A stretch of 64,000 nucleotides of DNA, taken from contig LSAX01000006.1 of the NCBI GenBank assembly GCA_001557505.1, positions 2,604,001 to 2,668,000 of the forward strand, read 5' to 3'. Source of the stretch: Reticulascus tulasneorum (Eukaryota > Ascomycota > Sordariomycetes > Glomerellales > Reticulascaceae). Position 1 is the stretch's first letter, and every line of letters begins with the position of its first letter. A program made the position numbers and the translations under genes. Below are positions 12,250-35,600 of this stretch, in pieces. The notes under the pieces are model-generated. The model saw only the letters and a list, made by a program, of their open reading frames with translations. It had not been told where the DNA came from and ran no database searches.

Positions 12250-13780
12250 ATGTCGTCAACTACAGCGACCGAGACGGTCGTGCTCGATGCAAAGTCGCGC
12301 AAGCAGGTGAGTGATCAACCAATCCCATGCACACCTACCGCGCGTCTGGCTGTATGTGTGTCTCACGCCACCAAACTCTCACACCTCACACACCTCACCT
12401 GGCCTCGCCTCATCTCACCTCACCCATATTCCGGCGCTGCGGCCGACTGCTCACCCCCCATCACCAACAAACCTCTGCCTGTTGCACCTGAACTGACACC
12501 CCTTGTAGCTGCAACCCGAGGTCAGCAAGTACCCGGATGTCAACACCATCCGCAAGGCCATCCCTCCACACTGCTTCGTCCCCTCGACATGGCTCTCGTT
12601 GGCTTACCTGCTGCGCGACTCGCTCATGTCCGCCGCCCTGGTCTACGGAGCCCTCAAGTTCATCCCCCAGATTCCTAACCCATGGATCCGCGCCGTTGCC
12701 TGGATGATCTACGGCTTCTGCCAAGGCCTCGTCGGCACCGGTCTCTGGATCCTGGCCCACGAGTGCGGCCACGGCGCCTTCTCCGTCCACCGCCATCTCA
12801 ATGACTTCATCGGCTGGGCCGTGCACTCGGTGCTCCTCGTGCCCTACTTTTCGTGGAAGTTCTCCCACGCTAGGCACCACATGTACACCGGCCACATGGA
12901 CAAGGACATGACCTGGGTCCCCCACACCGCCCGGGACTACGAGCGTGATCGCCTCAGCGGCTTCAAGCTGATCGACCCGGATCTGCTTGAAGATGCCCCT
13001 CTCTTCAATCTTCTCAAGCTCGTTGGCCAGCAGCTCTTTGGCTGGCAGATCTACCTCTTCCTAAACGGCTCCGCTGGTCGCGGCAGTCTTCAGCGACCCG
13101 AGGACAAGAAGTGGTACCGGGCTAGCCATTTTGATCCTTTCAGCGTTGCGTTCAAGCCCCAGGAGGCTGCCTACATCCTCATCTCCGACATTGGTCTGGG
13201 CCTGGTTGGCTACGGCCTGTATTGCGCCTCGCAAGTTCTCGACGCCGGCACCGTGTTTCTTCTTTACGGAGTCCCGTACTTCTGGGTTCACCACTGGCTG
13301 AGTAAGTATCAACTTCACAAACAAGGATGTCTTTACAATGCGGCTGTGCTAACCTCTTGAAAAAGTCTCAATCACGTACCTGCACCACAACCACCCAGAT
13401 GTGAAGCACTACGACGCGGAGGGCTGGACTTACGTCAAGGGCGCCTTGGCCACAATAGATCGTGACTTTGGCTTCATCGGCAAGCACCTTTTCCACGGCA
13501 TTATCGAGACCCACGTCATTCACCACCTATTCTCGTAAGACCCAAAATCATCAACCCCAAATTCTTGCTACCCCGTTATTAACTATTTTCCAGGCGCATA
13601 CCTTTCTACTACCAGGACGAGGCGACGGAGGCCGTGAAGCCCCTGCTCGGAGACTTGTACCAGCGCGACGAGCGGTCATTCTTTGGCCAGCTCTGGTCGG
13701 TGTTCAACGAATGCAAGTATGTTGAGGCGGACCCGAAAAACCCGGGTGAGATGAAATGGAATACCGCGCGCGTAAAATGA
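12250..13780 (+). CDS. FAD2: Oleate delta-12 fatty acid desaturase
   Basis: Four exons are inferred: 12250-12306, 12509-13301, 13366-13534 and 13594-13780, giving 401 residues. All three histidine boxes of membrane desaturases are present: HECGH at 103-107, HARHH at 139-143 and HVIHH at 333-337. These bind the di-iron centre. The block IRKAIPPHCFVPSTWLSLAYLLRD is the usual opening of fungal delta-12 desaturases, and the hydrophobic stretches around residues 50-130 and 190-280 fit an ER four-helix topology. The enzyme converts oleate to linoleate in phospholipids. The first exon encodes only 19 residues, and intron 1 is long (202 bases) and C-rich. Length and boxes are normal, so it should be active. 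Omega-3 or bifunctional delta-12/delta-15 activity cannot be excluded by eye. Confidence 0.9.
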
Positions 13781-14393: not shown

Positions 14394-15443
14394 TCAAAGG
14401 TTGAAGTCCTCGTCTGGATTCGCCCCGTTGATATGATTCGGGTTCTCCCGCTCAGGCTCATAGTACTTGTAGTACCCATCCGGCGCCTTGAGCTGCTTCA
14501 CCCCCTTCGGCTTCTTCATGACCGCCTCAAACTTATCGAAATCCAGCGTGTTCTCCTTCCTCCAGTCCGTCAGCCTCTCGAAGTCCACGCACTGCCGGTT
14601 GATACTCATGTCTGGGAACGGATACTCCTGCGTCTCGACCCAGTGCATGGTGATCAGGTTCACGTTCCCGCTGCACTGCAGCGCCTGCATGAGGATGTCG
14701 ACGCAGTGGTTGACGTGGATCTCGTACATGCCCTTCTTCTTCTTCATGTGCGACTCCGAGGCGTTGTAATAGTCCGGGTAGGCCATCTCGCGCAGCGCGT
14801 TGAGGCAGTGGAGCTGGTGGTAGACGTCGAAGATGGCGACGTAGGTGTCGTCGCCGAGGCCCCAGTCGCTGTCCTCGAGCTTGGATGCCGTGGACGGGTC
14901 TTTGCCCATGGCGCGGATCTGGTCGCCGGTGACGGGGAGGAAGCGCGTGAGCTCCCATTCATGCCAGAGGGCGTCGGCGTCGGGGTTGGGCGGCTGGCGC
15001 GCGATGGAGGGCTGGTAGCGGTCTGGGAAGAGCGTGCCGTTGATGCGCTTTGTGTGCGAGTTCAAGTCGACGAGGTCATGGACTGGGCCTGGGTTTTGTC
15101 AGAGGTTGTAGGATAGGTATTGGGTTGAGGTAATAGTGGTTTTTCTGGTGGAAAGCAGCTATGGTGACTGTGACTCACTGTAACTGGATGCTTGTCTGAG
15201 TTTTGGGTTCCGTAGCATGTGAGTGTTGTAAAACCAAGTGCCAAATAGGATGGCCGATAATATGAAGATGACGATGTTGGCGACAGTCAATACTATCAAC
15301 GGGCCCATGCCTTTTGTCCTCTGAGTTCTCAGAGTCTTCTCTTCCAAGAATGTCGTCCTCTCATCCTCCCCGGAATCTGAAGCTGAGGCGCTGTCCCGAA
15401 ACATCTCGAGAGGTTTGTATCCGCCTTTCAGAAACGAAGGCAT
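14394..15443 (-). CDS. UstYa-family (DUF3328) oxidase, probable RiPP-modifying enzyme
   Basis: Two exons on the minus strand, 15443-15179 and 15088-14394, give 319 residues. The protein has a short basic/acidic N-terminus, one membrane helix (about 47-70) and a C-terminal catalytic region with two HxxHC motifs, HQLHC at 179-183 and HVNHC (followed by VD) at 213-217. Paired HxxHC motifs are the signature of UstYa proteins. Members act in dikaritin pathways (ustiloxin, asperipin, phomopsin), closing rings through tyrosine or other side chains, and some act as halogenases or oxidases in other pathways. The gene is divergent from the repeated peptide precursor 1 kb away, which is the expected partner arrangement. 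The longer open frame to 15500 begins with TTG. The ATG at 15443 was preferred over 15452 because it has A at -3. Confidence 0.85.
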
Positions 15444-16472
15444 GGTTGGCATCAGGACATCAATAATTGGTAACACATAGGGCTGCGATGTATCAAACAA
15501 ACTACATAAGCGCGCAAGGTGGGATCAAGTAGAACTATGCGTCGGGAGGGCAGGCAAAAAGGCGGCACCAGTCGCAGGGTCGAATAAAGTATTGGATCTT
15601 TTGCGACGAGAGAAATCCGGATTCTTCCTTCTACAAATGGTTAACAGGGTATCATCAAGTCGTGCATATGACCCAATTTGGCAAGTTTGCCTCATATCAT
15701 CGCCACACGCAATACGTATTGGTCTGTTCTATTCTGACCCCAGTTACGTATACTATTACGATAGCCACCATAACTCTGGAAATATGGCTGACCGATCCAA
15801 TAGGTGTGAACCACGGCAGTGGTAAATGAGTTGTCGAGATAACATGCTGATGTCAGCATGCAAAATATCCCGGATCTTTTACCACCCTGGTAGCTTCAGC
15901 CTCCCTCTCGCCAACCCACCTTCCACTTCGGCGGCCGTGGGCGCTTACGATAGGTCGGGAAACAAAGTTTTGGTACGACGGATTACTGGGCGGGCCGCAA
16001 CCATGAATCTGGAACAGGAAGGCCAGCGGAAATCCATGAACACACGACTACGACATCATTGTGCGTTTGCGCCTCCAGAGTACGAGTTCCCGGTGTTTGC
16101 CGAGCGCATAAATGCGGATCGGAGGCACAGAGTAGTGTTGAAAGGATCGGAGGAACTTTCGTGTGTGCTTTGGAAGGTTGCACGAGAGATGTGATTGAAG
16201 GGAGCAGGTCGTGATGTACGGTCGGCCGACTGGTCATTGGGCGAAGATCGGTAGTTGTACTAGCTGCACTAGGAAGCTGTGGAACATTCATTTGCGGTAG
16301 GCCTTCACTCTCAGATATGGTCAACTAGAGTTGCGGTGCCAGGCTATGCAATGCAACCAAGCTTATAACTCGCGCTCCCATCGCCGCAGTCACTCAAACC
16401 ACTTTACAACCCAAATACAACCCGAATAAACTCAAGCAAGCTCCCAAAACCCTCTTCAACTTTTTATTCAAA
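15444..16472. promoter_or_regulatory. Divergent promoter region between UstYa gene and peptide precursor
   Basis: About 1 kb with no convincing gene on either strand. The longest ORF, 15826-16194 plus (122 residues), shows no domain and is opposed by a similar antisense ORF. Both flanking genes start here and point outward, so co-regulation through this region is likely. No specific operator was recognised. Confidence 0.5.
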
Positions 16473-16922
16473 ATGCGCGGCACTTTCTTTGCTGTAGCTT
16501 TCGCGGCTGTCGCTTCTCTCGCCAACGCGGCTCCAGTTGATGTAAGTCCACAGACGCTCTAACCATGCTCGTCGACTCCCCTAACCAAGTCACAGAACGT
16601 GGCTGAGCGAGAGGCCGAGCCGGCGGAGGCGTTGTACAAGGGCGATGGGCTCTACGTCCTCCGAACGCTAGCTAAGCGGGACGCCGCCCCCGTGGCGGCA
16701 GAAGCCTTATACAAAGGAGATGGGCTCTATGTCCTCCGAACACTCGCCAAGAAGGATGCGGAGCCGGAGCCGGCGGAGGCATTGTACAAAGGTGACGGCC
16801 TTTACGTCCTCCGAACTCTTGCCAAGAAGGATGCGGAGCCGGAACCGGTGGAAGCATTGTATAAAGGTGATGGCCTGTATGTTCTTCGCACTCTGGCCAA
16901 GAAGGATGAGGGCGCCGAATAG
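16473..16922 (+). CDS. Secreted Kex2-type repeat peptide precursor (putative dikaritin RiPP precursor)
   Basis: Two exons, 16473-16541 and 16596-16922, give 131 residues. Exon 1 encodes a signal peptide (residues 1-20, ending ANA-A) and the intron falls just after it, as in known fungal RiPP precursors. Exon 2 is almost wholly four tandem units with a 25-residue period. The invariant part is ALYKGDGLYVLRTLAK plus R or K, at 35-51, 60-76, 85-101 and 110-126. The dibasic ends (KR once, KK three times) are Kex2-like processing sites. The spacers DAAPVAAE and DAEPEPAE resemble dipeptidyl-aminopeptidase trimming tails, as in yeast alpha-factor. Each unit has two tyrosines (YKGDGLY), suitable for UstYa-type ring closure. 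The pheromone hallmark WC..C is absent. The product and its modification are inferred, not known. Confidence 0.85.
16593..16919 (+). repeat. Four tandem 75-base coding repeats of the peptide precursor
   Basis: The repeat units are 75 bases long and encode an identical 16-residue segment. They differ from one another at many third codon positions, for example tacaagggcgat, tacaaaggagat, tacaaaggtgac and tataaaggtgat for Y-K-G-D. The copies are therefore old and kept identical at protein level. Confidence 0.9.
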
Positions 16923-17204: not shown

Positions 17205-19327
17205 TCATATGACCATGAAGTAGGATCTCGTGGCCACGTCATACTCCATTACCACCTCCCCCTCCATCGCTCCCACACCAACAACAACCTGCCGCCACAG
17301 ATTGACCTCATATGACCCAGGCATTAGGCCCGGCAGCACCATTGCGCAGAGATATGCCCCTTCCCCACTATTATCCTCTTTGCTCTGATTGATCTCGTTT
17401 CCAAGGATATCTCTGACCTTAGTCGTAACTGCTCGCTCGGGGCACAGCACAACAGCCAGGTTCACATCACCCCATTTCCGATATTCCTCAGGCGGACTCC
17501 ATCTGACTATCATACCGGGCCTGATGCGCTGCTTGAATGGCACTGTATCTGCACCTGGTTCGGGATCTGCACTCCGCAACTGTTTGTCGTGCACTGGAGC
17601 AGCAACAGTTTCGCTAGCCGAAGTCGTGGGAGCCTTTCTGCGTTGAGAGTCGACATGTAGACTCCAGAACTTGATCTGGAATGATTGAGCTTGCTCAGAA
17701 GTCACACCTGGCGACTTGAGACAACGCGTTAGGAATTCTGGTGTTGGCACACGTAGTAGTTGCAGGCCGGACTCATATGGCGCCAGGATACTGGATGAGA
17801 CCGCAGGTGTTCCAGACTAAATGGTTAGCACTGAATGGATCCATTTCAGCCAACAGCGCATGTCTAGATAACTTACACTCTTCTCGATCCACTCCCGTAA
17901 TTGCGCATTTGACCACGTAGCAGGAATAGCAGCGTCATATTTCAAAGCGTCTGATGTTGGTACCACCACGCGTAGCATCTCAGCGTAGCGCAGTGTATTC
18001 TTGCTCGGCCCAACGTCCAGGAAGCTTGGATTCACGCAAGCTACAACAGCCGTCTTGCAACTTCGCTGGCCAGCCGGATCGAACACGTGCTTGAGCGTTT
18101 TCGTCAAGGCGCTTTGCCGAAATGGAATATAGGCTTTCCTAGGCTGCTTCGCCACCCCAAACGCAGCATCCAGTCCAGCACGGCCGCGAATACACTCCTT
18201 CAGGATGGATAAGCTAGTATTGATGTCGCGCGACTCTCGCATGCGCTCTGCGCTGTGGCTCTCTTTGTCACGGGCGGCCTCAGACCCGGCTAGGTCGACG
18301 AGGTACAACAGGCCATCTTCGGAATCTGGGAGAGCCTTGTTCTCAATCCGGAGCCGACAAATTGAGTGCGAGCGGGAGGACTCGTCGTTCTTCTCTGTTT
18401 GGGCTGTTGCGCGATTGCATGCAGCCAGTTCGATCTGGGAGAGAAGCCCCTCGGTGTCCAGCATATAGTGCTCGAGGGCGCCGGCAAGTTGCGTCAAGCC
18501 GAACGCATCTTCAAGGATGGAGATGCGCTTACGGTTATTGAGAAGGTCTAGTAATCAGAAGAAGTCAGCTATGATTACAACCACTGGTAGAGCTTGCTGC
18601 TACTAGTGCTCCTCTCAGCTCAGCACCAAGCCATGTCGAACGAGAAGAGACAAGCATTGACACGGTATCGAGGTTGTAGGTTCGTCGCAGAGGAAATAAA
18701 ATCTTACCAAAAGCAGTGTTCCCCGACAATTCAATAATGGAAACGTGAACCGTCCTTGTTCCCTCTTGTGCGCCGCCCATGAGCGCTTTCGCAGCAAGCT
18801 GCGTCATCTGGCTCACAGTAAAAGTCTTTCCAGAGCCTGTCTGGCCATAAGCAAACAAAGTGCTAACACCGCCTCCCCACGCCCATGGGATCAAGGGCTC
18901 CAGAAGCTCTTGGTAGACATCCTCTGTTGTGGCGTCTGGGCCAAACAGTCTGTCAAGTTTGAAGCTGAAAGACTAAGACAGAATATCAACATTAGCTAGT
19001 TTGTTCATGCAATATGAGTTTGAACCACGGAAACTGATTATGTTGGCAGAACTTCGAGATTATGCTCACATTTAGTGTTGGCAATCCCCTAACTGGTCTC
19101 TTGAGCTCATGGAGATCAACGGCACCCGGCTCGTTCTCCCGGAGAATAACACCAGGGACGTATCCTGCCGCGGCCTCCTCGGGTAAAATTGGTCGAATCC
19201 GCGCTGCAATAGCTATCTCATCACTAGTAGTTGTCTTGTTAATGTCCTTGGACTTGATTGGAGGTGGCCGGACTCTGTCGACCAGAAACTGATATCGCGC
19301 AACATTGTCTATCATGAATTGCTCCAT
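17205..19327 (-). CDS. Atypical kinesin motor protein with a C-terminal domain of unknown function
   Basis: Four exons on the minus strand, 19327-19070, 18972-18708, 18547-17877 and 17816-17205, give 601 residues. The motor has all nucleotide-binding elements: P-loop GQTGSGKT (129-136), switch I NDESSRSHS (228-236), switch II LVDLAGSE (257-264) and the late block YIPFRQSALTKTLKHVF. Motor order and the FKLDRLFG opening resemble kinesin-13 and related internal or short kinesins, which couple ATP hydrolysis to microtubule movement or depolymerisation. The N-terminus before the motor is only about 40 residues. The last 204 residues (exon 4) follow no coiled coil. They look like a globular, beta-rich domain (MIVRWSPPEEYRKWGDVNLA, MVLPGLMPGSYEVNLW) that I do not recognise. 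Confidence 0.8.
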
Positions 19328-19912
19328 GATGAATCTCAGTTGCCTGAGTATGGAGAGACCAATTGATTTGTAGTTCTGTTTTAATCGACCATCTCTTCGT
19401 TGGTCCTCAGGAATCTTTTCTGGATTTTATGGCCGTTTCATATGCGCAGTAAGTGGCTGCCTGGCTTGGTGAAGAAATGCGTTGTTGCCAGGCAACCGTG
19501 AATTGGCGAATGGGCCAAAGGGAGGATCGCAATCGAACGCCACTTAAGTTACATCTTCTTTCTAGCTCCCCAAAAAGGGCTGGTGTCAGTTTCTACAGAT
19601 GTTGTACTCCGGCTGGCCTGGCGCTGATGCAATGCTCCAAATCGATATATCGATTGAGAAACGAGGTGCGGCTGAGGTATTACTAAGCAATCCCTCCACT
19701 CCAGCCAAGCTGGCCGACGCCGAAATACACGTTCTGCGATGGCGGATTGTGAGCTGGGCGGTCGGGCAGTTGGAATCACGTGGTTTACAAAACGCAGAAC
19801 TACTTTCAGCTGTGCAGGACGAAAGAAAATCCTGTTTAAATCAAGAATCTTAAAAGCAGCCCCAAAGCTTGGCTGGCAGACTCGATTTTGGCGATGCGAG
19901 CTTTGCTCTAAC
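19328..19912. other. Divergent intergenic region
   Basis: About 585 bases between the divergently transcribed kinesin and HET genes. The HET frame stays open upstream to 19739, but that text does not resemble a HET N-terminus. A short stretch near 19655-19680 (acgaggtgcggctgaggtat) resembles one near 40275-40300 (acgaagtccggctgcgctac) and may be a repeat remnant. Confidence 0.4.
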
Positions 19913-21847
19913 ATGTCGGGTCGGCTGGCTTCCCGAATATCTCAGGCCCTCACGTTGGGTGGCGATCGAGATTCAGAGCCCCCCAGCTTTCAGTACACGC
20001 CTCTTGCACCAGAAGGATGCGAAATTCGTCTCCTAGAACTGAAACCAGGTCGCTGGGATGCCCAGATTGAATGTCGTATCAAAGTTGTGTCGCTCAACGA
20101 CTCGCCATCGTACGAGGCGCTATCTTACGTCTGGGGAGACGTGGCAGACAGCCGCTCAGTCAGGCTAGGTGGCTATGATCACAATGTGACGGCCAATCTC
20201 GAATCGGCTTTGCGTCACCTGCGTCGTCGATGGCGGTCCAGGACGCTGTGGGTTGACGCCTTGTGCATTAATCAGACAGATCTCGCAGAGAGGGCGGCAC
20301 AGGTCCAGAAGATGAATACCATTTATTCCTTAGCGTCAAAAGTGCTTGCTTGGGCCGGGGCTGCTAGCCAGGATAGCATTGAAGCGATCCAACTGATCAT
20401 GGACTTTGGTCGATGGAACGAGAGGATCGATTGGGATGATATAACAGACCCTAAAGATGATACGTTGAAGGTCAGCAGCTCTGGCCAGAGCCCGACTGAA
20501 ACGCTCTCGGCTCGGGCGGCAAGACTCGGATTCTCAATGGAGGCGCGGAATTGGACAGCGGTTTGGGACTTTCTTGAGCGGTCTTATTGGAGCCGCGTAT
20601 GGGTGATCCAGGAGCTGGCTGTCCGCAACTTTCTGGGCACGGCGAAGCCCTGTACCATCTATTGCGGCCGGAGCAAGGTGGATAAGATGCACTATGATCT
20701 GGCATGCGCCGGTCTCCTACTTATGCTGCAATCAAGTAGCATGGTGGATCCTGTGACGGGTAAGGTCGATGAACCTAGTCGGTCCTTGTTCCTTCAGGGT
20801 CGTGCACATCCGCCTGGGTTGACTATGTGTCAGACGACGTCGGCCTGCAACGGCACACGAGGAGGGGTCTCGAGCTTGAGATGGCTACTGTACGTCTCCC
20901 GTAGGTTCGAGGCCACGGACGACCGCGACAAAATATATGCATTGCTAGGCATGGCACCTGAGGCGGACCGCTTTCTCCGCCCAGACTATAGCAAGTCGAT
21001 TAGGGTGGTGCTGATGGAATACGTCAAGTATTTTGTCGAGCGAGATCGTAATCTTGATTCAATATCCTCAAATCGCCGCGAAACTTGCGCTGCGGCGCCG
21101 ACTTGGACGCCTGAAATACACAGCGGACACCATGCGGGAGACCTGTGGGGTGCGCAAGTTGTTGAAGAGTCCTTTGGCGCGTCTGGCGACAAGGAAGCAG
21201 ACGCAGAGTTTGATGACGAAACAGAGTCCATGCGTGTCAGAGGGGTTGTTATCGGGACAATCAAAACAGTCATCGGCCCTTTACGGAACGGAGAGAAGAC
21301 TGTTGGCTCTTTCAGCAATATGCAGGAGCTCTTGAAGCGCCATGGCCAGTACGAGGTCCTCGATAAGCTTGCCGGGTTTTCCCGGACGGTTCACGGGCCG
21401 GCATACGATGCATTCTGGCGGACACTCATGCTAGACCGGATTCCAAATCTCACCGGAGGAGACGGACAGACATATCCGGCGCCGCCAGAACTGGGCCGAG
21501 AAAGTCGCGTTTTCTTTAGATCGCAAGCCGTGCCACTAGACTTCCAACCTGATGCAAAAGAAGAGCGTCGGTATTTCCAGTTTACCGAGACATTCAGGCG
21601 TCTCCATTCCATAGCAATGACAAATCGTACATTCTTCAGCACTGAAGCGGGATACATGGGCCTAGGGCCGTATCTTACCCAGCCCGGAGATTTGGTGGTG
21701 GTGTTGTACGGTGCGAGGCTTTGTTTTGTTTTGCGGCCGGATGGGAGTCGGTACCAAGTTATCGGAGACGCGTATGCGCATGGGGCTATGCAGGGAGAAA
21801 TGGTCAGTCCCGGATCCGGGAAAGAAAGGGTATTTACGCTTTGTTAG
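19913..21847 (+). CDS. HET-domain (heterokaryon incompatibility) protein
   Basis: A single exon of 644 residues. The three HET blocks are present and uninterrupted: YEALSYVWGD (about 68-77), LWVDALCINQTDLAERAAQVQKM (about 112-134) with SKVLAWAG after it, and WSRVWVIQEL further on. The middle part carries RRFEATDDRDKIYALLGMA, typical of this subfamily. HET proteins act in the cytoplasm and cause cell death when incompatible hyphae fuse, or serve as innate-immunity-like sensors. The ATG at 19913 (MSGRLASRIS) was chosen rather than the upstream one at 19739 because the extra 58 residues are not family-like. Unlike the HET gene at 5.5 kb this one has no frameshift. Confidence 0.85.
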   Translation: MSGRLASRISQALTLGGDRDSEPPSFQYTPLAPEGCEIRLLELKPGRWDAQIECRIKVVSLNDSPSYEALSYVWGDVADSRSVRLGGYDHNVTANLESALRHLRRRWRSRTLWVDALCINQTDLAERAAQVQKMNTIYSLASKVLAWAGAASQDSIEAIQLIMDFGRWNERIDWDDITDPKDDTLKVSSSGQSPTETLSARAARLGFSMEARNWTAVWDFLERSYWSRVWVIQELAVRNFLGTAKPCTIYCGRSKVDKMHYDLACAGLLLMLQSSSMVDPVTGKVDEPSRSLFLQGRAHPPGLTMCQTTSACNGTRGGVSSLRWLLYVSRRFEATDDRDKIYALLGMAPEADRFLRPDYSKSIRVVLMEYVKYFVERDRNLDSISSNRRETCAAAPTWTPEIHSGHHAGDLWGAQVVEESFGASGDKEADAEFDDETESMRVRGVVIGTIKTVIGPLRNGEKTVGSFSNMQELLKRHGQYEVLDKLAGFSRTVHGPAYDAFWRTLMLDRIPNLTGGDGQTYPAPPELGRESRVFFRSQAVPLDFQPDAKEERRYFQFTETFRRLHSIAMTNRTFFSTEAGYMGLGPYLTQPGDLVVVLYGARLCFVLRPDGSRYQVIGDAYAHGAMQGEMVSPGSGKERVFTLC

Positions 21848-22031: not shown

Positions 22032-23039
22032 TTAGGGAATAAACACATCAAACGTCTCCACTGCACCAACTCCTTGCACAATTCCTCCGCCAGGGATATA
22101 TATCTTTCCATCGATAGCCGCTGCCGAAGTCCCGTGCCTGGGTATCTTCATTGATGGCAGGTTTCTCCAAGTATTGGTCTCAGTATCGTATACTTCCGTC
22201 TGGTTAAACACGCCTTGAGTGCCTTGTGCTGGATTTCCTTCCCCACCAAATGTAAATATCTTCGTCCCAACTGCCGCTGCGGAGAGCCCACCACGTGGAG
22301 TTGGCATCTTGGCTGTGCTCGTAGTCCATCCCCTTCCCAATTCTTCCAGATCCAGAATAAACACCGTATCCCGCGTGTTTGTGAGACCACTGTCTCGCCC
22401 ACCGACGACATAAAATTTGTGGCCGATTACTGCACCACCTACGTGGTCCCTCGGTGCAGGTATTATGGCAGCGATTTCAGGCAAGGCGATCCATTGTCCT
22501 GAAGAGACGTCAAATGCAGTCACAGTGTTAACCGTACGACCGCTAGTGCCAGGTATGCCTCCTGCCACCCAAATCGTACTGTTGTAAACACCCACAGCCG
22601 CACCACCTCTCGCGACAGTGGTAGACATCCCAGCCAAAGTTTCCCAGGTATCTTTTGCGGGATCGTAAACCCAAGTGTCCGGGACGGCTTTCCAAGCATA
22701 GACCCGACCAGGGACGGTTTCGGTAAGCCCACCCAGGACGTAGATCTTTCCACCTACGGCAGCGACATTCGGGTGGTTTAAGCCAACGGGCAGCGGAGCG
22801 GCAGATTTCCAGGTGTCATTGGGAATATCATACAATAGCACGATATTTGTTGTAGCTCCGCCTTGGACCAGCCCTCCGACTACCCCGAGCTGGGTTGGTG
22901 AGATTGCAACTGTGCTATGCTCCTGTAATGTTCCAATGGGAATGGGAGCCAAGTCCTTCCATTCGCTTGCATGGCAGAATTGAAGCAATACCTGCACGAC
23001 GGCGAGAAATGATAAGAGCTCCGTGATCGAAAGCATCAT
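22032..23039 (-). CDS. Secreted Kelch-repeat beta-propeller protein
   Basis: A single exon of 335 residues. A signal peptide (1-24, ending CHA) is followed by six Kelch-type blades, each with a hydrophobic run ending in paired glycines: LGVVGG, IYVLGG, IWVAGG, FYVVGG, IFTFGG and IYIPGG. Each is followed by a ...YD....TW motif. Six blades form a complete propeller, related in shape to the galactose oxidase propeller but without its copper-ligand extension. It sits at the end of the polyketide-peptide cluster, 618 bases from the 3' end of the synthase and on the same strand. Secreted Kelch proteins in such clusters have no settled role; a binding or non-canonical enzymatic function is possible. 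Membership of the cluster is a guess from position. Confidence 0.8.
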   Translation of the reverse strand: MMLSITELLSFLAVVQVLLQFCHASEWKDLAPIPIGTLQEHSTVAISPTQLGVVGGLVQGGATTNIVLLYDIPNDTWKSAAPLPVGLNHPNVAAVGGKIYVLGGLTETVPGRVYAWKAVPDTWVYDPAKDTWETLAGMSTTVARGGAAVGVYNSTIWVAGGIPGTSGRTVNTVTAFDVSSGQWIALPEIAAIIPAPRDHVGGAVIGHKFYVVGGRDSGLTNTRDTVFILDLEELGRGWTTSTAKMPTPRGGLSAAAVGTKIFTFGGEGNPAQGTQGVFNQTEVYDTETNTWRNLPSMKIPRHGTSAAAIDGKIYIPGGGIVQGVGAVETFDVFIP

Positions 23040-23656
23040 GGCGAGTATCTTGCAGCTGTCAAGCGGTAGAGTTCAGGACACGCAGTGGGGCTGTCATTCT
23101 GTATATAGGTGACTTGGCTTGGCTTTCATGCGGGGAATAGCAGATCACTTCTTCGGTGTGAATAAGGCAGTTGACGTCCAAAAGTCGTGGTTGGTGTTGC
23201 ATTTTGCCAAATTAGGTCTGCAGGACCACGGCAGTTTAGCCCAATATCACGTCCTTGGCACGGGAATAACAATATCAAATCGCCGACCATCAGAACTTGA
23301 GAACTACTAGAAGAGCTTCTATGCAATAATAATTGCTTCGTTGCGAGCAAGAGACAGTAGACAGCTGCAACAAAGATCTGTACTTCCAGGTTCTTCAAGG
23401 TAGTATCATCCCTTGGCCGTCAAAGCAACTTCACTGGGATGCAATATGTTGCTTTGAACTAAAAGCAACGCAAGATCTCGACTGGATTCGTTTCCTACAA
23501 CACATATCGAGATATCCCAATTTGTTTCATAACTTGATCAATATACTATAATCATTTCCCCTATCCTTGGGTCTTATACGTACCCAAATAGTGACATTTA
23601 AACTCCCGTAAGTTTGCTCCTAAACATGTTGAACTACCTTATATGACACTTTCTAT
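23040..23656. other. Intergenic region between Kelch gene and PKS-NRPS 3' end
   Basis: About 617 bases with no supportable gene. It should contain the Kelch promoter and the terminator of the synthase. Confidence 0.45.
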
Positions 23657-26600
23657 CTAGGTCGCTCCTCTGTGAATACTTGGCAAAGCCAGCGACTTCC
23701 CATTTCCCAAAGACTTTATCAAGAACCGGTACATGAGCTCATTGAGCCCAGCCAATCGCGCGCTTTCCAACCAGTCCCTCGAATCGAGCTCTGTAAACTG
23801 CCCGCCTTCCGTGTTCTCCATGTATTCCCTCAAGCCTTGTGGCCGTACCTTGACGTCACTGCAATGATGCAGATATGCACTGGATGTCACGACTGTACCA
23901 TGACTTGCCTGCTCTTTCTTCTCGGTTACGGAAGAAAGTGCTGCATCCACGATACTCTCTGCTACGGTCTCAACCGCAACAAAGTCAAACGTGCCGCCTA
24001 TAGAGTCTGAAAATCGAGGCACCGCTCTCAGAGACTTAGAGTACGCACGCAAGGCAGCTACAAAATCCAGCTCTGGTGCCCCGTCCCCTATAATGCTGGT
24101 TGGTCGATGGACCCAGCCCCGCAGTCCGTAATCTTGCGCGAGACTATCGAGGAGCCCCTCACTGATCCACTTGGATGCTGTGTAGCCGTCGAGATCATCT
24201 GCCGATGGTGACTCAAAATCTTGGACAGATATCTCGGGCAGCGACTCGCCGGGATAGGATTTCGCAACCGAAGCGGTCGAGACGAAGTGGATTGGAATCG
24301 AACCTGTAAGCGCCATCTCGGCCAAATGTCGCGTCGCCAGGACGTTAGGTCGTCTAAGTGAGCGGTACGACTTCATGAAGGAGACGTCCGCACCATTGTG
24401 GATGATGACATCGGCACGCACCACGAGGCTGCCGAACTCGGAAGTTGAAAGGCCCAAGCGGTAGTCGGCAAGGTCACCAGAGTGTTCGACGATCTTGGGA
24501 CTGACAACTCCAACGTGTCTCGGCTGGCCATTGGCGTCCTCTCGTATGGCGATGCAGTGCACCTCGCCAACCTTCTCGTCCTGGAGTAAGCGATCCAAAA
24601 TGTGCCGTCCTAGAAAGCCAGTTGCGCCAGTCAAGACCACGGACAGGCCGGTCTTGGGTGTCGTGGCTTTGGCGCCTGGTTTGGAAACCGCCAAGACTGG
24701 CAACGAATGAGCCGTAGAAGAGAAACCGTCGCAGAGCACTCGTAGCTCTCTTTTCCAATCGATTTCCTGACTTGGGACCTGTTCTCCATTCGAGACTGGC
24801 TGAATGCGCGAAGCCATGTCACGAATGGTGCTTGCTTGGAAAAGCTCTGGCAGGCTCATATTGCTTCCAAACACCATTTTCAGCTCCGCCTGTAGCTTCA
24901 GTAATAAGAGCGAATTTCCGCCAATAAAGAAGAAGTCAGTGTCCGGTGTTGTCTGTGATCGCCTTGCCATATTTGGAAGAACTTCTTGCCATACAGCGGC
25001 TACCTGCGACTCTAAATCGGTGAAGTTCTCGTTGTGTCCATTTGTCTCTCGGAGTAACGGGATTGGCAACTTGTCGATCTTCATCCTATCCCGCTTACCA
25101 TTGGGGCTTCTAGGGATTTGATCGATGGAAGTGATGTAGGTCGGGCGCATGTACGTAGGGAGCGGCAGCTTGGTCCTGAGCTGATCGAGGAACGTGGCTT
25201 TGTCTCCTGTGAACTCATCCGAAAACACGACGAAGGCGGCAAGAAGATCTGAGTCGCGTAGAGACACAGTGGCATCCACAACAGAGGAGTCTGCGGTATT
25301 GATGAGTACCCTGGATATCTCCTCCAGCTCGATACGCATGCCGCGAATCTTGATTTGGGAGTCCCCGTCGAGTCGGCCCATGAATTGAAGGTGTCTGTCC
25401 TCAAGCATTCGGCCCTTATCCCCCGTACGATAGAGTTTGTCCCAACCCTTTGAAATGTCTTGCTTGGATGAGATCTTGTCTGGGACAAACTTGCGCGACG
25501 TCTCGTCGGGTCTGTTCACATATTCTATCGCATTACCGGCACCCCCAATGCAAATCTCTCCAGGAAACCCGACTGGTAGTGGATTCATGTTCTCATCGAC
25601 GACCACGACGGAGTAGTTCGGCATCACCAAACCAGCTGGACTATCGCCCTCTGTCTCGTCCGTATTATATGGGACAACACATCGTGTACAAGAAAGACTG
25701 GCCTCGGCGGGTCCGTACAGATTTATCAGGCGAAGGTTCGGAAGACCCAGCCTCTTAAACCACTGTCGTAGCTGAGCAGTTATCTTCTCACCTCCAGAGA
25801 AGGCAAGTCGCCAGGAAGAGCACTTCCTAAGGATGTCGGAACCGTAGCGCATTAGGTACAGATACTCAGAGGGTACGAACTCAGTGTACGTAACACTTTC
25901 CAAGAGTATGAGATTCGCAATCTGTATGGCATCGCCGCGGGCCTCTTTGGAAGCGACGACAAGAGTACCCCCATTTGCTAAGGCACTGAAGATCTGCTCC
26001 AAGGAAAGATCGAAGCCAAAGGAGCTCTGCTGCAGCACGATTTCCTGGCCAATCCCGTACAACTTCGAAATCGCCCAAATTTGGTTCAGTACACCGGCGT
26101 GCGTTAGCAGCACTCCCTTTGGAGTGCCAGTGGAGCCGCTTGTATATATAGCAAAGCCAGGGGCGTTGGCTCGTGCAATTGAACTAATAGGAGCTGCCCG
26201 CCTCGAATTTGTGCCTTTTAGTCTCGGTTCCAACACATTCACCATGTCAACATTGAGATTTTCTGCAAGCTTCTCTGCCAGGCTTATCGTGTCGGTATCG
26301 CAGATGATTGCGCTGGGCTTGCAGTCTGCGACTATAGCGGATAGACGACCCTCTGGGTTCCGTAAATCGAGCGGGACATACACTAGGCCTAAACGCATTA
26401 TCGCCAACAGAGCGCAGATTGCGTCAGCGGCTGGTTGCAAGAGGACTCCGACGTAAGACTCAGTTGGAAGGTCAAGTAGTAGGCTGGCGATCTGAGTTAC
26501 GCGTCGCGTCATCTCGTGGTAGGTCAATTGTTTGCCGTAACCGTCTTTTATGGCAAGTGAGTTCACGTTTAGCACTGCCATCTCCTCGATTCGATGCGCC

Positions 26601-29600
26601 AGCGTGGGAGCTTGCCACTCCACAGCGATTCGGTCGCCAACGCCCAGATTTATAGCGTGCTGGAGATCTGAATCAGATGCTAAAGGACAGTTTGATGCCT
26701 TTCGCGAACTATCAACGGCAAAACCTTCCAAAGTGCTTATGTACCAGGACATTAGCATTTTGGTGTCTGCTGCGCTGTACATATACTTCTGGGTTGTGAA
26801 TGAGATGATAGTCCCCTCCGCTATCTCTGAGATGTCGATGATGAGATCGTATGGGTTGCGAGCATCGGTTGTGGATGTCCATTCTATCTCGCAATTCCCC
26901 AGTGACAGAGTTCTCGAGCCGCCCATGCGGTAGTTGACGGCGATCTGGAACATAGGGTTCTGGTCACCGGATCGTGGGACCTTGAGGATATCGAGGATCG
27001 TATCAAAATCGACTTGCGAATTAGACAAAGCTGCTAAAGTGTTGTCCCTGGTGCGGCGAGCCAGATCGCTAAATCGCTCCTCAGCATTCATGTTAAAGCG
27101 CAAGGGTAACAGGTTGGTGAAGTATCCAATAGTCCCCATGTCTTCCACACTGGTTCGGTTAGCGTCGAGAATTCCCATTGCAAAATCATCGATACCAAGG
27201 CATCGAGAAACGAACGCAGCCATTGCCGATAGATAGAAATGAAAGGAGGTTATTCCTAATTCTGCGCTCGCCTGCTTGATTCTGCGTACCATGGGCGGCT
27301 TGATTGTAACATCAAACGCTTCTGTATCGTAGGCTTTGAGTAGCTGCCGACATTGTACTTTGGAGATCGGAAACAATGGTAACGCTTCAGGCAGAGTGTC
27401 GTATGTGTCTCTCCAAAATTGGAGTTGTTTCTCCAGTCTATCAGATGCCCTCTTCCTGCTGTGCTTATCTGACACATCAAGAGCCTGCTGGTTAGACACG
27501 CCAATATCTATACCCGCATATGCTCTGTTTAGCTCGGTGAGGAAAATGCCCCAACCTATACCGTCGAGAGCTATGTGGTGGAAGGTAAATATGATGTGAT
27601 GCTGAGACCATGACCGAGAAAGGACCTGGACTTTCATGCAACGCCCAGCCTCAAGATTAGCCTCAAAGCGCCTCATGGTGTTAACTGCGGCTTCTACTTC
27701 AACCTCATCTTGGAACTCTTTATGATCAAGAATGATGTTCGGTTCGCTACTAACCCCTTGCATGGCCTTGCCACTGACGCTGTCCAGGAAGAAAGAAGTA
27801 CGGAGACCTTCGTGCTTCATGGCAACGGTGTTAAGCGCTTTCTTCAGCCTCGATACTTGCAGAGACCCGCGAAGCTTTCCAGACATGGTAACATTGTAGG
27901 TTGATTTATCCTCCAAATAGATATGCAGGAAGTAGATTCTACTCTGTCCTGGAAACATTTCCCCTATCCTTTCGTAGATTCGTTCTTCCTTTGCACCGTT
28001 CTCTGAGATGTCATCATTTATAACAGAGACTGCAGACAGTGGCGTACCAGGTGTATCCTCTTTTGAGCTAAGGGCCTCTGTCGGCGCCGATGAAGTGTAT
28101 TTCTCATTTTGCAGGTTCAAGCGAGTTCGAAAATCTGAGATATTTTTAGTCTCTATCTCTGCACCAGGAGCCGACGCGCCAGTCGTTTGCGAGGCCACTA
28201 ACAGTTCTGGGAGCATTACCAAAGCGTCTTGGCAAATATCTGCGATAGATGCGCCGCTCAGAATCTTGAGAACCGGCATATCAACATTGACTTCTTTTAG
28301 AAACCACGATCTGATCTCCACTGCAACCAAGGAGTCGATCCCTAGCTTTAGCAATGGTGTGCTTGGATCGATGCTATCGGCAGAACTCTGCAAAATCATT
28401 GCTAGTTTGCTTGCACAGGCGCTTTGCAAGATAGCAGAAGCCTCTTCGCCATTGCTTGCTGCAGCCAGTCGCCCCTGTACGCTCTGTGAAGACTGTGTTT
28501 GATGGCCGCCAACGTCCCCCATTTCGTGCTCGTTGCGGACATAGGTGGCGAAACGAGGGTTGGTGTGCCACGGCGCATTGGCTTCCTCTCCGATGCCGAT
28601 GATGATTTCAGGATCCTCTTTGGATAGCGGGTGTCCCGCAGCAATGGCTTCAGCAAAGACACTATGGAACTCTGGCTCGGATATTCTCATATATCCAAAT
28701 TTTCTTAGGTGCTCTTCGTACTGCTCGAGATTGCGCGCGACGAATCCGACGCCAAGAAGGAAGGCAATATCGATGATCGACGCAGCCACACCTCTCTGCT
28801 TTCGCTGACGTGTCAGGGAGTGCATATACATGTTCGCTGCGGCGTAGTTGGACTGGCCTGGGTTGCCCATTACGCAAGTCAGGGAGGAGAAACAAATGAA
28901 GAAATCTAGCGGAGTCGAGTAGAACAGCTCGTCCAAATAACGGGTACCGTCAACCTTTGGTCGCAACGCTACCTCGAATTCGGACAACGACATATTGTTG
29001 AAAAGCTTGTCGTTTAGCACCATCGCAGCATTAGCCACACCAGCAATGGGTGGCATTGTTGCGGATATCTCCTGATGAACCTTCAACAATGCCTCTTTAT
29101 CCGTAATGTCAAGAGGAAGAACCCTGATGTTGACACCCTTGCTTTTGAGATCCTTCAGTACTTCCTCATCAGCCTTCGGGTTCCGGCTAGTGACTACAAT
29201 ATGCCTAGCTCCGTGCGTGACCATCCAGTAGCAGATGGAGAAGCCGAGTTCCGAAGCCAGACCTACCAGAAGATAGGTCTTGTTCTCCGAGAAAAGACTG
29301 AATGCGTTGAGAGGGTTGATCTTAGTCTTCACTGACTTGGCATCTTTCCAATCGAGAACCATGGTGGGATGTACCAATCCTGAGAGCTTCGCAACCTGGG
29401 TTACGGAAATGGGTTTGTTAAGAGAATCAGTGCAGCCGATGGTAACATCTGTCGAAGAAGGAGAAGAAACGTAACGCGTAGCGATGGCGACCATTTCCTT
29501 GTGGCTGTAACTCAGCAGTAGCGAGGTTGCATCGTGTGCTTCAGATATCCTTCGCAACTCGACCCCATGTCCAAATGTCTCCACGACATGATCCAAGACG

Positions 29601-32600
29601 GTACTGGATTCGCCAAGATTAACAAACGCTGTAATGCTTTTCGGAATGACAGACAGTAGTTCTCTGTCTGTTGCATATGGATGTATATACGTCTGAGTCG
29701 GGTCAGAATTGCCTATCGAAGCCGAAGATGTGCTAAAGAAAACGGCAACTCCTCGGTTGGCGGCCTCAACAGTAACGAACTTGGCCAGTAGAGTTTCTGC
29801 ATCATGGACCCAAACATGGCCTTTTACACCAAATAAGATGCTTTCGGTAATTAGGACGGCCAAAAGTGTCTGCAAATCTTTCGCATTACCAATGCTGTTG
29901 TCAAGAAGCAAGACATCCTTTGAAGGCACGCTGAGAAGTGACCGGTTCGATGGGGAGAACGCAAGTACCTCACGTTCAGATCCGTCTACTGAGCCGAAGG
30001 ATATAAAAAAAGGTTCACTATTGCCTGCTCTGAATGAGGAGTACGACGAAGCGTGGATTTTGACCTGGATGGCATCGACAGCAACAGGCGCTGTCAATGG
30101 TTGCTCCACCTGCTGGAACGCACGTGAGCCGTTCGTATGTACCAACTCCAGGCAAGCATCTGTAGAAGACGCAATACTGTTAATGTCTCTTCTTCCAGAG
30201 TTTAGCCTGTTGTTCATTGCTTCGTTAGGAAGAATCCTTGGGATGTAAATACCACCTCCTTCGACTGCTAGCTCCCATTCGTCGGCCCACAGTATATCGC
30301 TGAAATCGGCCGAATCCAAGCAAATGGACCGAACAAGAGTCTCAACAAAAAGCTGGGGCTCTGGCATATGAGTCTGCAAGGTATCCAAATCTAGAAACTG
30401 CAGGCGGAGATGAGGTAGTTCGTGCATAATAGCCCGACCAAGGCCGACGACCATATTGGAGAGCGGGTTGAAAGCTCGACACCCTTGCGTCACCCAAAGG
30501 ACATGTTTAGCATCTTGGAATACTGCTTGTGCTCCGCTAAATCTCTCGGAAGTAATGTCCTTGAACATAGGCACCTCCAGCTCGGAGAGGACAACCACAG
30601 CTGATCCGTAGGGGACATTTTCAACTTCGTCCAGCCTTTTGACGACAGTCACGTTCGATGCAATCGGTTGAAGCAAGCTTCGGGTTTTGTTGACAAGCTT
30701 AGCAATGCGCTGTGACTCTCCACCGACAATGATCAGGTTGCCGAGATGTGGCATGTAGTTCGGCCATGAGAGAGGGTCGCGCAGGACCTCAATGCGATCG
30801 TCGACGGCCTGGCTGACAATGAGTGAAGCCAAATACTTTTTGGGATCGTCGTGGTCTCTGTACGCCGCGTCCACGCCAGAGAAACCGGTTCCCAACAACT
30901 CCTCATTCCAACGAGCCTCGTCCACGGTGGGATGATACATACGGCCATCATCACGGCCCAACCACCAACCTGGCAGATGGGAAGAGATAAACTGAGGTAG
31001 AAGTCCATCATTGGTGACCTCATTAAGGATCATAAACCCTCCAGGCTTAAGCAGACTTCTGCAGTGGACCAAGGTCTTGGCTAGAGACTTGGTGGCATGT
31101 AGAGCATTCGAGGACATGATCACGTCGTAAGAATGCTCTTCAAAACCCTGATCGAGTGGGCTGCGCTCTATATCCAGGACGGCGTACTCCATCAACGCCG
31201 AATAGTCTATAAAACGGGCTTGGGCGCTCTCGAAGAAACCAGCCGAGATATCAGTATAGGTGTACGAATGGCAGTGGCCAGCAAGACCCTTGAGCATGTG
31301 AACGGACGCACCACCTGTGCCGGCGCCGATCTCAAGGACTTTCATGCGGGGATAGCGATGTGCCAGTTGATTGGTCACGGTGACGAGGTGGCTATATGTC
31401 TGGCGGAATGGAACGGCGTCGGCGTAGAGTCTAGTGAGCATATCGTTCTGCATCATGACCTGCAATGCTGGAAGCTCGCCCCGGACAATGGAGGGCTGAA
31501 CTTCGCCAAGTGCCGATATCATCTCTAATTCCACCTTTCCTGGGTACATGGCCTTCCACTCCTCCACTTCCTCACGCGTATCATTCGCCCACTCCTTCAT
31601 AATGCGTGGGTGACGCCCAGCTTCGATCTTAGGAAGAAGGTAATTCAGAATCCAGTCAATCTGGATTTGAAAGTGGCCGTCCAGGTTGGGAATCTCGCTT
31701 GGCGAGATTGCATCACGCAGCCTCCGGTGGTAAAAGTAAGCAACTCGCTCACAAATATCGCCAAACTTGACCTCCTCGGGGGTCAAATATTGGATCTGCG
31801 CGGGTTCAACACCACTTCGTATGTCTCGTTTCCAAACTGTGTTTGCAAAGAGCTTTCGGTCATTCTGTGGTGTGGCTTTGGTGAACGAGGAACATGTCAA
31901 TGCATGTAGTTGAATCTGCGGGTGTCCGTTTGCGGACGAGGTAATGTCCACATCTCCGCAGATGACCTTCGAGTTGGCCACTCTGAGATAACAGTCAGCA
32001 ACCAACTCGTCACTTTCCTTCATGGACACCGAGGCTTCTAGGGCCGCGGGATTGATTCGGATTCGCTGCACATTGGTGGGCAGATACGGAGTCCACAGCC
32101 GGCCATCGCCGGGAAACGCCAATGCGGTAAAGAGGCCGTGAAATGCAGCATCGAGCGTTGCTGGATGTAGTCGAAGTTTGGAATTGTCAACATGTTTGAG
32201 TGTGACTGTGGAAACATTCAGTCTTCTCTGAACCGAGTCAACCGTGAAGTCACCGGTGTATACCAGGCCGACTTCCTCCATATAAGAATAGAGTCGGTCC
32301 ACACTGACAGGTTTCATTGGCAGTTTTGGGGCAATTCGGGCAGGCAACGCGTCAGTTGCTGGAGTTCCAAGATGCACAGCCGCACGTCCCGTGAAATTTG
32401 TACTCTCAAAGTCCTGGTCGTCATCAACCTTGCAGCTGTAGCACGAATACTCTGCCGTGATCCGCTCCTGAGACCGGTCCGTGACCCGGATTGTAAAAGT
32501 CACTTCGGTGCCCGTCGAATCGTTTTCGAGCGTGATGGCACGATGGATGAAGAGGTTCTCGAGCTCAACAAGTCGCACCTCGTCGTCAGCCGCTACTAGG

Positions 32601-35600
32601 CGAATTGCTGCCTCATAGGCCATGGACACATAGCCGGCGGCAGGAAAGAGAACCTGGCCCTGGAATACATGACCCCGCAGCCACTCCATCTCCTGTATTT
32701 TCATGACATTGCGCCAGGTCACCTCTCTGTTATTTCCATATGATGTCGCTGACCCGAGGAGCTCATGGACTGGATCCTCTCGTGTTCGATATTTCCGAGA
32801 TTTGCGTGACTCCTTCCACAGACGGCTGGCATGGTCCCATGGGTAGGGTGGGAGACCCTTAAGGACTGTCTCTTGATTGTATTTATCTCCAAGACATGCC
32901 TTCCTGAATCCGTCAAAGTCGACGACAGGCAGGGGGGAGAGGAAGTTGGACCAAACGAAGCCAAGAGCGTCTGAAAAAGATTCCATATCACCTTTGCCTC
33001 TGTTAAGAACACCAGAATACGGTATGTCCAATCCCGTCAGCGTCTTCAGACTCTCCACCACAGGGGATTTTAGCGCAAAGTGCGGTCCAACCTCAAGCGC
33101 AATGTCGTGGCAATGCTCCTCAGTCACCGCTCTGTCGATCGCCTGAGAGAATAGCACTGGCTTTACCATGTTGTCTACCCAGTAAGTGTTCTCTAACACA
33201 GTCCTATCATCTACACTCCGTCCGTTCGATCCGTATACGCTCGAATACCATTTGCAGTTCAGTTGCCCCTTCCGGACTTCAATGTTGCACTTTCGGAGCG
33301 ACTCGAGGTACGGCACCGCGCATGGATTCATATGATGCGAGTGGTAAGCCTTGTCCACTTTGAGAACTCTTGCAAAAGTCATTTCTTGATCCAAAAGATC
33401 CTTTGCTTCATCGATGGCATCCTCGTCGCCGGACACGGTAACACTGGATCTGGAGTTGCCTGCTGCCACATGGATCCTACCGACAAACCGATCCCGAGCG
33501 CAGAAAGAACGTGCCTGCTCAAGATTCATGCCAACCGCCATCATCTTACCACGCTGACCGCCCGGTGCGCCGGCGAGATGTGTGTGCACACCTCGGTAAT
33601 AGGCGATGCGAATCGCATCTGACGCCTCCAGGTAGCCAGCAGCGTAGGCTGCTGCAATCTCTCCGGAGGAATGACCGACAACGGCACTAAATGTGATGCC
33701 TGAAGCATGGAGGAGATCGACAAGCGCAACCTGGAGAGCGGTGCACAGGGGTTGCGAAATCTCTGCCTCATTTATCCTTGACTTCTCGGCCGGCGCTGTG
33801 AGCTCTGCTACTAACGACCACGTCGGGGGATCAGGCAACGCTCGCAGTGATTCTTCGAGATTATGGATCGATCTTCGGAAGGCGGCGGACTTCCTGTAAA
33901 GACCAGCACCCATTGATGGCCACTGTGCGCCTTGGCCTGTGAATATGCCCAGGACCCGCGCAGGAAGATCCTTTGTAACGTGTATCCCCTTTGTCGCTAT
34001 AGTGGCTTGCGAGTTTTGTGAGGCTTTAGCAACCGCGTCATCCAGCTTCTTCGCCAGTCCCTCGGCTGTTGATGAGGATACATATGCCTTGTATGGAAAC
34101 TCTGTGCGGCGTGTTTGCAGAGTCCATGCCAACCTCGCGAGTTCTTTAGTCTGTCCATTTTTTAAAGTCTCGGAAAGTGACCGGGCTGCGTCCACCAGGG
34201 CTCTTTCCGAGTTGGCCGACAATGTGAGCGGGCCACATGGGAACTGTGGACCTTGAGGATGAGAGGCGGACGCAGCTGTACTAGATGGCTTCGGCGTCCA
34301 GCCCTCAAGGATTGCGTGAGCGTTGGTCCCTCCAAAGCCAAAGCTGTTCACGCTGACACGGCGTGGGACGCCAGGCGGTAGTTCCGGCCATGGAGTCGCC
34401 TCTGTTGGGACGCAGAGGTGGGAGTAGAAAGGGGCGACTTTAGGGCTGAGTCGGTTAAAGTGCATGTTGGGAGGGATGATGCCGTGTTGGATTGCTAGGG
34501 ATGCTTTCAACAGCCCTGCTAGTCCTGCGGCCCCTTCTAGGTGGCCAATAATCGTCTTTACGGATCCTACGTAAAGATTATCGTCTGATTTGCTGCCTTC
34601 TCCGCTTGCGGTGTTGTCTTCTCCATCGTCTTCGTCATCTTCGGCAGGAAAAAATGCATTTCGCACAGCCTGTGCCTCGATTGCTAGAAGAAATGTGAGC
34701 AATGATAATGAAAGAATCCTTTGTAGTGGCCATGAACTTACGGTCTCCGGCCATGGTCCCTGTACCATGGGCTTCGAAATATTGGCAGCGGTCTTCCTTT
34801 TTCTGGCAGTCTAAGCCAGCTTTGGCGTAGGTAGAACGAATCAACGCTGTTTGTGATGTGGCACTGGGCATGGTGATTCCAGATGTGCGCCCGTCTTGGT
34901 TTACACCTGTTTCTCTGATGATACATTCGATATGATCACCATCAGCAATGGCCTGGCTGAGTGTCTTGAGAAAGACCGCAGCAAAACCCTCACCTCGCCC
35001 ATACCCGTCTGCAGCAGAATCCCACATCCGTGACCGCCCAGCTGGAGATAACATGTGGAGCTAGAATAGAGAGTCACGGTTAGTCAATGCTCCTCTGTTC
35101 TCATTCTTGTCTGCGGGGTTGTACTTACCTTGGATTCAAGAATATACGGGTCAGGGCTGAGAATCAAGTTCACGCCAGCTGCCACTGCAAGTTTAGACTC
35201 GCCTGCCCTAAGAGTCTGCACCGCATGGTGCAGGGCCACCAAACTCGACGAACAAGCCGTATCTATAGTGGTCGAGGGACCTTTCCAGTCGAAAAAATAT
35301 GACACTCGGTTAGATAGAATGGCTCTCGAGATACCAGTCGCGGCGTACTGAGGCGCACTGTCTATGTCCCGCATGAGCAAATCTGAGTAGTCCTGTGTCA
35401 TCTGCCCTACAAAAACAGCTGTCTCTGAGCCCTTAAGCTCCTCAATGGCGTAGCCCGCAGAGTCCATGCCTTCATACACTGTCTCCAATAGCATGCGTTG
35501 CTGTGGATCCATTGATTCCGCCTCCTTGTGGTGGATATTGAAAAAGTTGTGATCGAATACGCGGTGGTCCTCCTCAAGGAGGTAGGACTGAAGAACGTTG

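Follow-up and report, generated by a model that had tools for sequence, protein, structure and literature searches.

A repeat peptide precursor encoded divergently from a UstYa-family protein in Reticulascus tulasneorum: a candidate dikaritin-like locus

Within a 64,000-nucleotide stretch of the Reticulascus tulasneorum genome (the window), a gene for a small secreted repeat protein lies divergent from a gene for a UstYa-family protein, with an intergenic region between the two start codons that could act as a shared promoter (Table 1). The coordinates and features of both genes in a preliminary description were re-derived from the window and are correct. Antisense ORFs across the repeats and the UstYa gene were judged to be mirror frames of the real genes.

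Table 1. Coordinates of the two genes, of their neighbours in the window and of the related pair on contig C17.
Feature	Position	Strand	Remarks
Precursor gene	16473-16922	+	131 aa; one predicted intron
Precursor exon 1, signal peptide MRGTFFAVAFAAVASLANAAPVD	16473..16541	+	ATG 16473; signal peptide judged by eye; phase-0 donor GTAAGT directly 3'
Precursor intron	16542..16595	+	54 nt, phase-0; GTAAGT...TCACAG; predicted
Precursor exon 2, four units (X-A/X-P)2-3-(A/V)E-ALYKGDGLYVLRTLA-K(R/K)	16596..16922	+
Core 1, ALYKGDGLYVLRTLA	16629..16673	+	translated; cores 2-4 start 75, 150 and 225 nt further on
LYKGDGLYV in cores 1-4	16632, 16707, 16782, 16857
UstYa gene	15443-14394	-	319 aa when spliced; two exons
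UstYa exon 1, N-terminal tail and single transmembrane segment	15179..15443	-	ATG 15443
UstYa intron	15089..15178	-	90 nt; GTGAGT...ACCCAG; predicted; acceptor picked by family alignment
UstYa exon 2, luminal domain with HQLHC and HVNHC	14394..15088	-	PF11807, E=2.7e-54
Intergenic region between divergent start codons	15444..16472	.	1029 bp; possible shared promoter
Fatty acid desaturase	12509-13357		upstream; Pfam
Kinesin	17820-18554	-	Pfam; adjacent exons predicted
HET-domain protein	19676-21844		downstream; Pfam
Kelch protein	22035-23072		downstream; Pfam
PKS-NRPS hybrid	23660-35605	-	Pfam
Carboxylesterase	38.3-40.0 kb		Pfam
Zn2Cys6 regulator	41.4-43.0 kb		Pfam
C17 UstYa gene	ATG 191827	-	divergent from C17 precursor, 953 bp apart
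C17 precursor	192781-193083	+

Unspliced, the reading frame of the precursor runs into a stop. The predicted signal peptide ends in ...AAPVD and is followed by four units, each repeat spanning 25 residues (75 nt). The cores are 15 residues long, all identical, and carry two tyrosines each; the block that is invariant across the units is EALYKGDGLYVLRTLAK. As in dikaritin precursors, the cores are repeated within a secreted protein and Kex2 dibasic sites lie between them. The four identical, dibasic-ended units noted earlier are thus present, with the refinement that unit 1 ends in KR and units 2–4 in KK, which has been described as a lesser Kex2 site (PMC6339444). A search of the organism's own genome with the precursor protein matched the window gene alone and revealed no second copy.

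At the nucleotide level the cores are far from identical. The six pairwise comparisons gave 8–13 synonymous differences over 12.3–12.7 synonymous sites and 0 non-synonymous differences over 32.3–32.7 sites, and in random-mutation trials with three of the six pairs the protein was kept in 0 of 40,000 trials each. The repeat is not a chance repeat. As the cores have stayed identical despite nearly saturated silent sites, strong purifying selection must act on the peptide; the core copies are therefore old, and the peptide has been preserved by selection. The core contains a hydrophobic stretch, GLYVLRTLA, and KEPs with structural, surface-active or effector roles exist (PMC9769878, PMC7329392), so that peptides acting in such a way (like the Rep1 peptides of Ustilago), with no part for the oxidase, can be envisaged. 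We regard this as the least probable of the alternatives considered here, since there are just four copies of one short peptide and the adjacency of the UstYa gene would be left unexplained.

The partner gene was assigned to the UstYa family by Pfam (Table 1). Its splice acceptor at 15089 was preferred to one at 15083 because it restores the YSPxxD stretch of the family. The product is strongly hydrophobic in a single stretch, which begins at residue 49, and has HxxHC motifs at residues 179 and 213 and two N-glycosylation sequons, at 105 and 197; the Pfam match, the motif positions and the single hydrophobic stretch bear out the earlier account of a divergent one-helix protein with two HxxHC motifs. 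The locus thus has, like dikaritin loci, a nearby UstYa/DUF3328 gene with HxxHC motifs. In the protein database 199 homologues were found at E<=0.001; among the matches listed, the best near-full-length ones, from Bisporella, Apiospora and a member of the Xylariaceae, are 56–59% identical, and shorter matches to part of the protein go up to 71% identity. Aligned with 27 of the 120 listed homologues, the window protein shares with all of them the H, H and C of each motif, and in a tree of 28 UstYa domains it sits in a 15-row fork with no finer placement. The best AlphaFold model of the luminal domain (mean pLDDT 85.4, pTM 0.77; the remaining four models average 65.7–77.0) places the motifs on two helices, at 86–101 and 119–138 in the numbering of the modelled piece. 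The one sequence match in the PDB, to an alkanal monooxygenase chain (E=0.0069) and covering part of the profile only, was taken as chance, and of 23 pattern matches in viral contigs none was confirmed as a UstYa relative.

A six-frame UstYa search of the genome (42.8 Mb in 35 contigs, the window lying on C32) gave at least 33 matches, grouped into about 21 regions including that of the window, within which this gene alone was matched; these counts are lower bounds. By a simple estimate, only ∼0.1% of genomic positions are 1030 bp or less from one of these regions, and adjacency of precursor and UstYa gene by chance is unlikely. The neighbourhoods of 13 of the 20 other regions were compared. 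By two repeat detectors, one of the 13, on C34, has a Kex2-type precursor; counting a gene on C17 that was found by inspection, repeat precursors lie beside UstYa in two of the 13, and a search for secreted ORFs took in 15 UstYa spans in 12 of them (all but C5). Because the detectors overlooked the C17 gene they may have missed further precursors too. Most of the UstYa regions examined are not visibly paired with a precursor, a proportion in which pairs may be undercounted.

The C17 region and a second region on the window's own contig, C32:473k, were inspected as those with the two UstYa genes closest to the window's among those examined. The C17 protein is the most similar, with 65% identity over residues 90–253 of the window protein; its match shifts frame past the PDM motif, where an intron is therefore likely. 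Divergent from it lies a small gene for an 83-residue secreted protein with two repeats, TPQVYNPxDPVYSGKELRIYE, which have diverged at silent sites (9.5/14 synonymous against 1.5/49 non-synonymous). Its predicted 51-nt, phase-0 intron falls directly after ...AAPVQ, matching the position of the intron in the window gene. The two pairs are thus alike in the divergent UstYa gene, the secreted repeat precursor and a phase-0 intron right after AAPV(D/Q); they differ in the number and sequence of the repeats, and no dibasic sites lie between the two C17 repeats. A likeness between the cores (Y-x-G-x-x-L) is not significant, since 2093 and 2662 of 20,000 shuffles were as good and 2046 of 34,609 21-mers in a six-frame control did as well, and alone it is no proof of common descent. 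Nor do the two intergenic regions have words in common above chance (observed against expected: 9 nt, 5.0 and 7.4; 10 nt, 2.0 and 1.7; 11 nt, 0 and 0.38). Nevertheless, to judge from their common gene structure, the pairs of the window and of C17 seem to have arisen by duplication of a single pair.

The UstYa gene on C34, whose product is 38–40% identical to that of the window, faces a Kex2-type precursor of seven units, which is divergent and starts ∼1 kb from the UstYa match. Its units are of AEAYG type (AEAYGPPLNPH...), and X-A/X-P spacers were found at none of the seven sites tested. This pair (C34:2246653-2248835) is a further candidate dikaritin locus. With C17, and with C34 facing a different repeat precursor, the divergent pair recurs in this genome. 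The C32:473k protein is 49% identical to the window's over residues 20–319, and the ORF divergent from it has a signal-peptide exon and no clear repeat. UstYa matches on both strands were also seen at C32:2554120-2556694, about 62–65 kb upstream of the locus, and an antisense-frame stretch recurs unchanged in the UstYa match of C12 and in that of C5, a small contig whose end thus seems to carry a duplicate of part of the UstYa gene on C12.

Pfam scanning of 22 window proteins (20 chosen from 80 ORFs, plus the precursor and UstYa proteins) named no tyrosinase, P450, transporter or stand-alone methyltransferase among them. It did reveal a PKS-NRPS hybrid with ketosynthase, acyltransferase, dehydratase, methyltransferase, ketoreductase, condensation, AMP-binding, carrier and NAD-binding_4 domains, which together with the Kelch, carboxylesterase and Zn2Cys6 genes probably forms a secondary-metabolite cluster ∼7 kb from the locus. 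UstYa proteins act outside RiPP pathways as well. The UstYa gene could in principle belong to this cluster (hybrid at 23.7–35.6 kb), given that the hybrid, the carboxylesterase and the regulator are about 7–26 kb off, and its closeness to the precursor would then be incidental. We consider this very unlikely: kinesin, HET and Kelch genes intervene, and the arrangement of a UstYa gene with a small secreted gene recurs at C17, although a PKS or NRPS may lie in the flanks there too.

The spacers of the precursor raise a different possibility. Ahead of all four cores run X-Ala/X-Pro dipeptides, in register (n = 2, 3, 3 and 3), the first run following ...ER, which is not dibasic, and the others KR, KK and KK. 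The unit-2 spacer, DAAPVA, differs from DAEPEP at three positions with the dipeptide register intact. Permutation within spacers gave probabilities of 0.018–0.2 per spacer; as the spacers are related copies, the product of these values is not itself a probability. In alpha-pheromone precursors of ascomycetes, such dipeptides follow the Kex2 site and are removed by Ste13 (PMC6339444), and they have been treated as a mark of pheromone-type peptides (PMC6339444, PMC9769878); according to Le Marquer et al. (2019), the toxic cyclic peptides of ascomycetes and the epichloecyclins come from precursors that lack the Ste13 signature (PMC6339444). The window precursor resembles the pheromone precursors in its signal peptide, its repeats and its Kex2 sites followed by X-A/X-P dipeptides. 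It differs from them in a core that has neither Cys nor Trp, and hence is not of the WC...CW type, and in its UstYa neighbour. The canonical alpha-pheromone precursor of the same genome is a separate gene (C1:4302983-4303702, minus strand), with seven WC[RTV]KPGQPCW cores and X-A/X-P spacers (e.g. DADPEP) at five of the six cores directly after a KR run; with that gene on C1, a canonical mating pheromone is ruled out as the identity of the window precursor.

Since Ste13-type spacers are tied in ascomycetes to unmodified pheromone-type peptides, a linear-peptide reading stays alive, in which Kex2, Kex1 and Ste13 would trim the precursor to an unmodified, pheromone-like signalling peptide and UstYa would act on something else. 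The in-register dipeptides before the four cores and the shared spacer style of the organism's own pheromone precursor favour such a reading, as does the survey of Umemura, in which only 3 of 216 putative fungal pheromone KEPs had a UstYa gene nearby (PMC7329392). We think it unlikely, though worth keeping in mind, because the canonical pheromone gene lies elsewhere, because the UstYa gene is unlikely to be adjacent by chance and because a UstYa gene lies near 17 of 76 Basidiomycota KEPs that are homologous to Ste13-type ones (PMC7329392). Those KEPs near DUF3328 genes show the same pairing of Ste13-type spacers with UstYa vicinity, but in another phylum, and the likeness is one of description. 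Among ascomycetes, a pheromone homologue of Rutstroemia is reported to have a UstYa gene two genes away (PMC7329392).

UstYa-family proteins cyclise or desaturate peptides of repeat precursors (PMC7329392, PMC10512285). In 1461 fungal strains a UstYa gene was found near 1758 of 7878 KEPs, its frequency peaking immediately beside the KEP gene, and tyrosine occurred in the repeats of 65.6% of UstYa-linked KEPs as against 38.2% otherwise (PMC7329392). A 2022 review gives the number of reported dikaritins as only five (PMC10512285). Ustiloxin and phomopsin share with the window locus the Kex2 repeats and the UstYa family. Their Y-x-I core (EDYxI motif) is not present in the window core, which has YVL and YKG; and the window differs from both in the Ste13-type dipeptides of its precursor and in having no tyrosinase among the ORFs scanned. 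Asperipin-2a, with the core FYYTGY, has a transporter and a reductase, and neither turned up in the ORFs scanned around the window locus. Both systems have a secreted Kex2-type repeat precursor, a single UstYa gene, few genes and no regulator near the precursor (PMC7329392, PMC10512285), but the asperipin-2a repeat is 8 residues long (PMC7329392), against 25 in the window, with a core of 15–17 residues and Ste13-type spacers. In YAIG and YVIP of ustiloxin and phomopsin, as in YVL of the window, an aliphatic residue stands two places past Tyr (PMC7329392).

In the protein database, none of 85 word-sharing candidates was related to the precursor at E<=0.001, or at E<=10, in a search that relies on exact 5-residue words and would therefore miss diverged cores. 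A degenerate core pattern had 0 matches in viral contigs, and the core strings had no match in the full text of 5.39 million papers, as distinct from the supplementary tables that give survey cores. The earlier statement that no characterised product has this core agrees with these limited searches.

Against a dikaritin-like reading stand the Ste13-type spacer, the KK after three of the four cores, the absence of tyrosinase, P450 and transporter genes among the 22 proteins scanned, the low share of visibly paired UstYa regions (two of 13), the C17 paralogue lacking dibasic sites and the non-significant likeness of its core. Nevertheless, we regard a two-gene, dikaritin-like peptide pathway as the best, and probably the correct, explanation of the locus, judging from its sequence. 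The proposal that a modified peptide is made is supported in part, a UstYa-linked repeat precursor being the best-supported reading (adjacent intact UstYa gene, two tyrosines, selection on the core, paralogous pair). It had missed the Ste13-type spacers, by which the predicted N-terminus becomes (A/V)E-ALYKG and not ALYKG. In such a pathway the precursor would enter the secretory pathway by its signal peptide and be cleaved by Kex2 after KR or KK; a Kex1-type carboxypeptidase would strip the basic residues and a Ste13-type dipeptidyl aminopeptidase the leading X-Ala/X-Pro dipeptides, yielding four copies of (A/V)EALYKGDGLYVLRTLA. Predicted monoisotopic masses of the linear forms are 1852.009 for AEALYKGDGLYVLRTLA, 1880.041 for VEALYKGDGLYVLRTLA, 1780.972 for EALYKGDGLYVLRTLA, 1651.930 for ALYKGDGLYVLRTLA and 2490.264 for untrimmed DAEPEPAEALYKGDGLYVLRTLA. 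The membrane-anchored UstYa protein, its HxxHC motifs in the lumen, would then oxidise the released peptide, most likely by forming a bond between the side chain of a Tyr and another close by; YVL, as the nearest approach to the Y-x-I of ustiloxin and phomopsin, would be the likeliest site, and the modified product would be secreted, perhaps to act in defence, signalling or host interaction. The outcome need not be a ring, since desaturation of residues is a further activity of UstYa proteins (Sogahata 2021, as summarised in PMC10512285) and might occur here without cyclisation.

Since 1758 of 7878 KEPs are UstYa-linked and 2560 KEPs had no homologue in the same survey (PMC7329392), the window locus adds to a large predicted class. 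Two features are less usual: for an ascomycete, a Ste13-type spacer beside a UstYa gene; and a divergent pair that recurs. With two genes and a 15-residue core that is strongly conserved, the locus lends itself to expression and testing, and the C17 pair, lacking dibasic sites, could reveal how UstYa recognition behaves when the core changes. It has been proposed that cyclic peptides arose from linear, pheromone-like precursors (PMC7329392), a view to which the Ste13-type spacers are relevant. We suggest tentatively, as a conjecture that may well not hold, that maturation here is hybrid, with alpha-pheromone-like processing by Kex2, Kex1 and Ste13 followed by cross-linking by UstYa, and that UstYa/precursor pairs have duplicated and diverged within one ascomycete genome. 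If true, the product would be a cyclised peptide hormone, or the pathway a step between a linear pheromone and a cyclic toxin.
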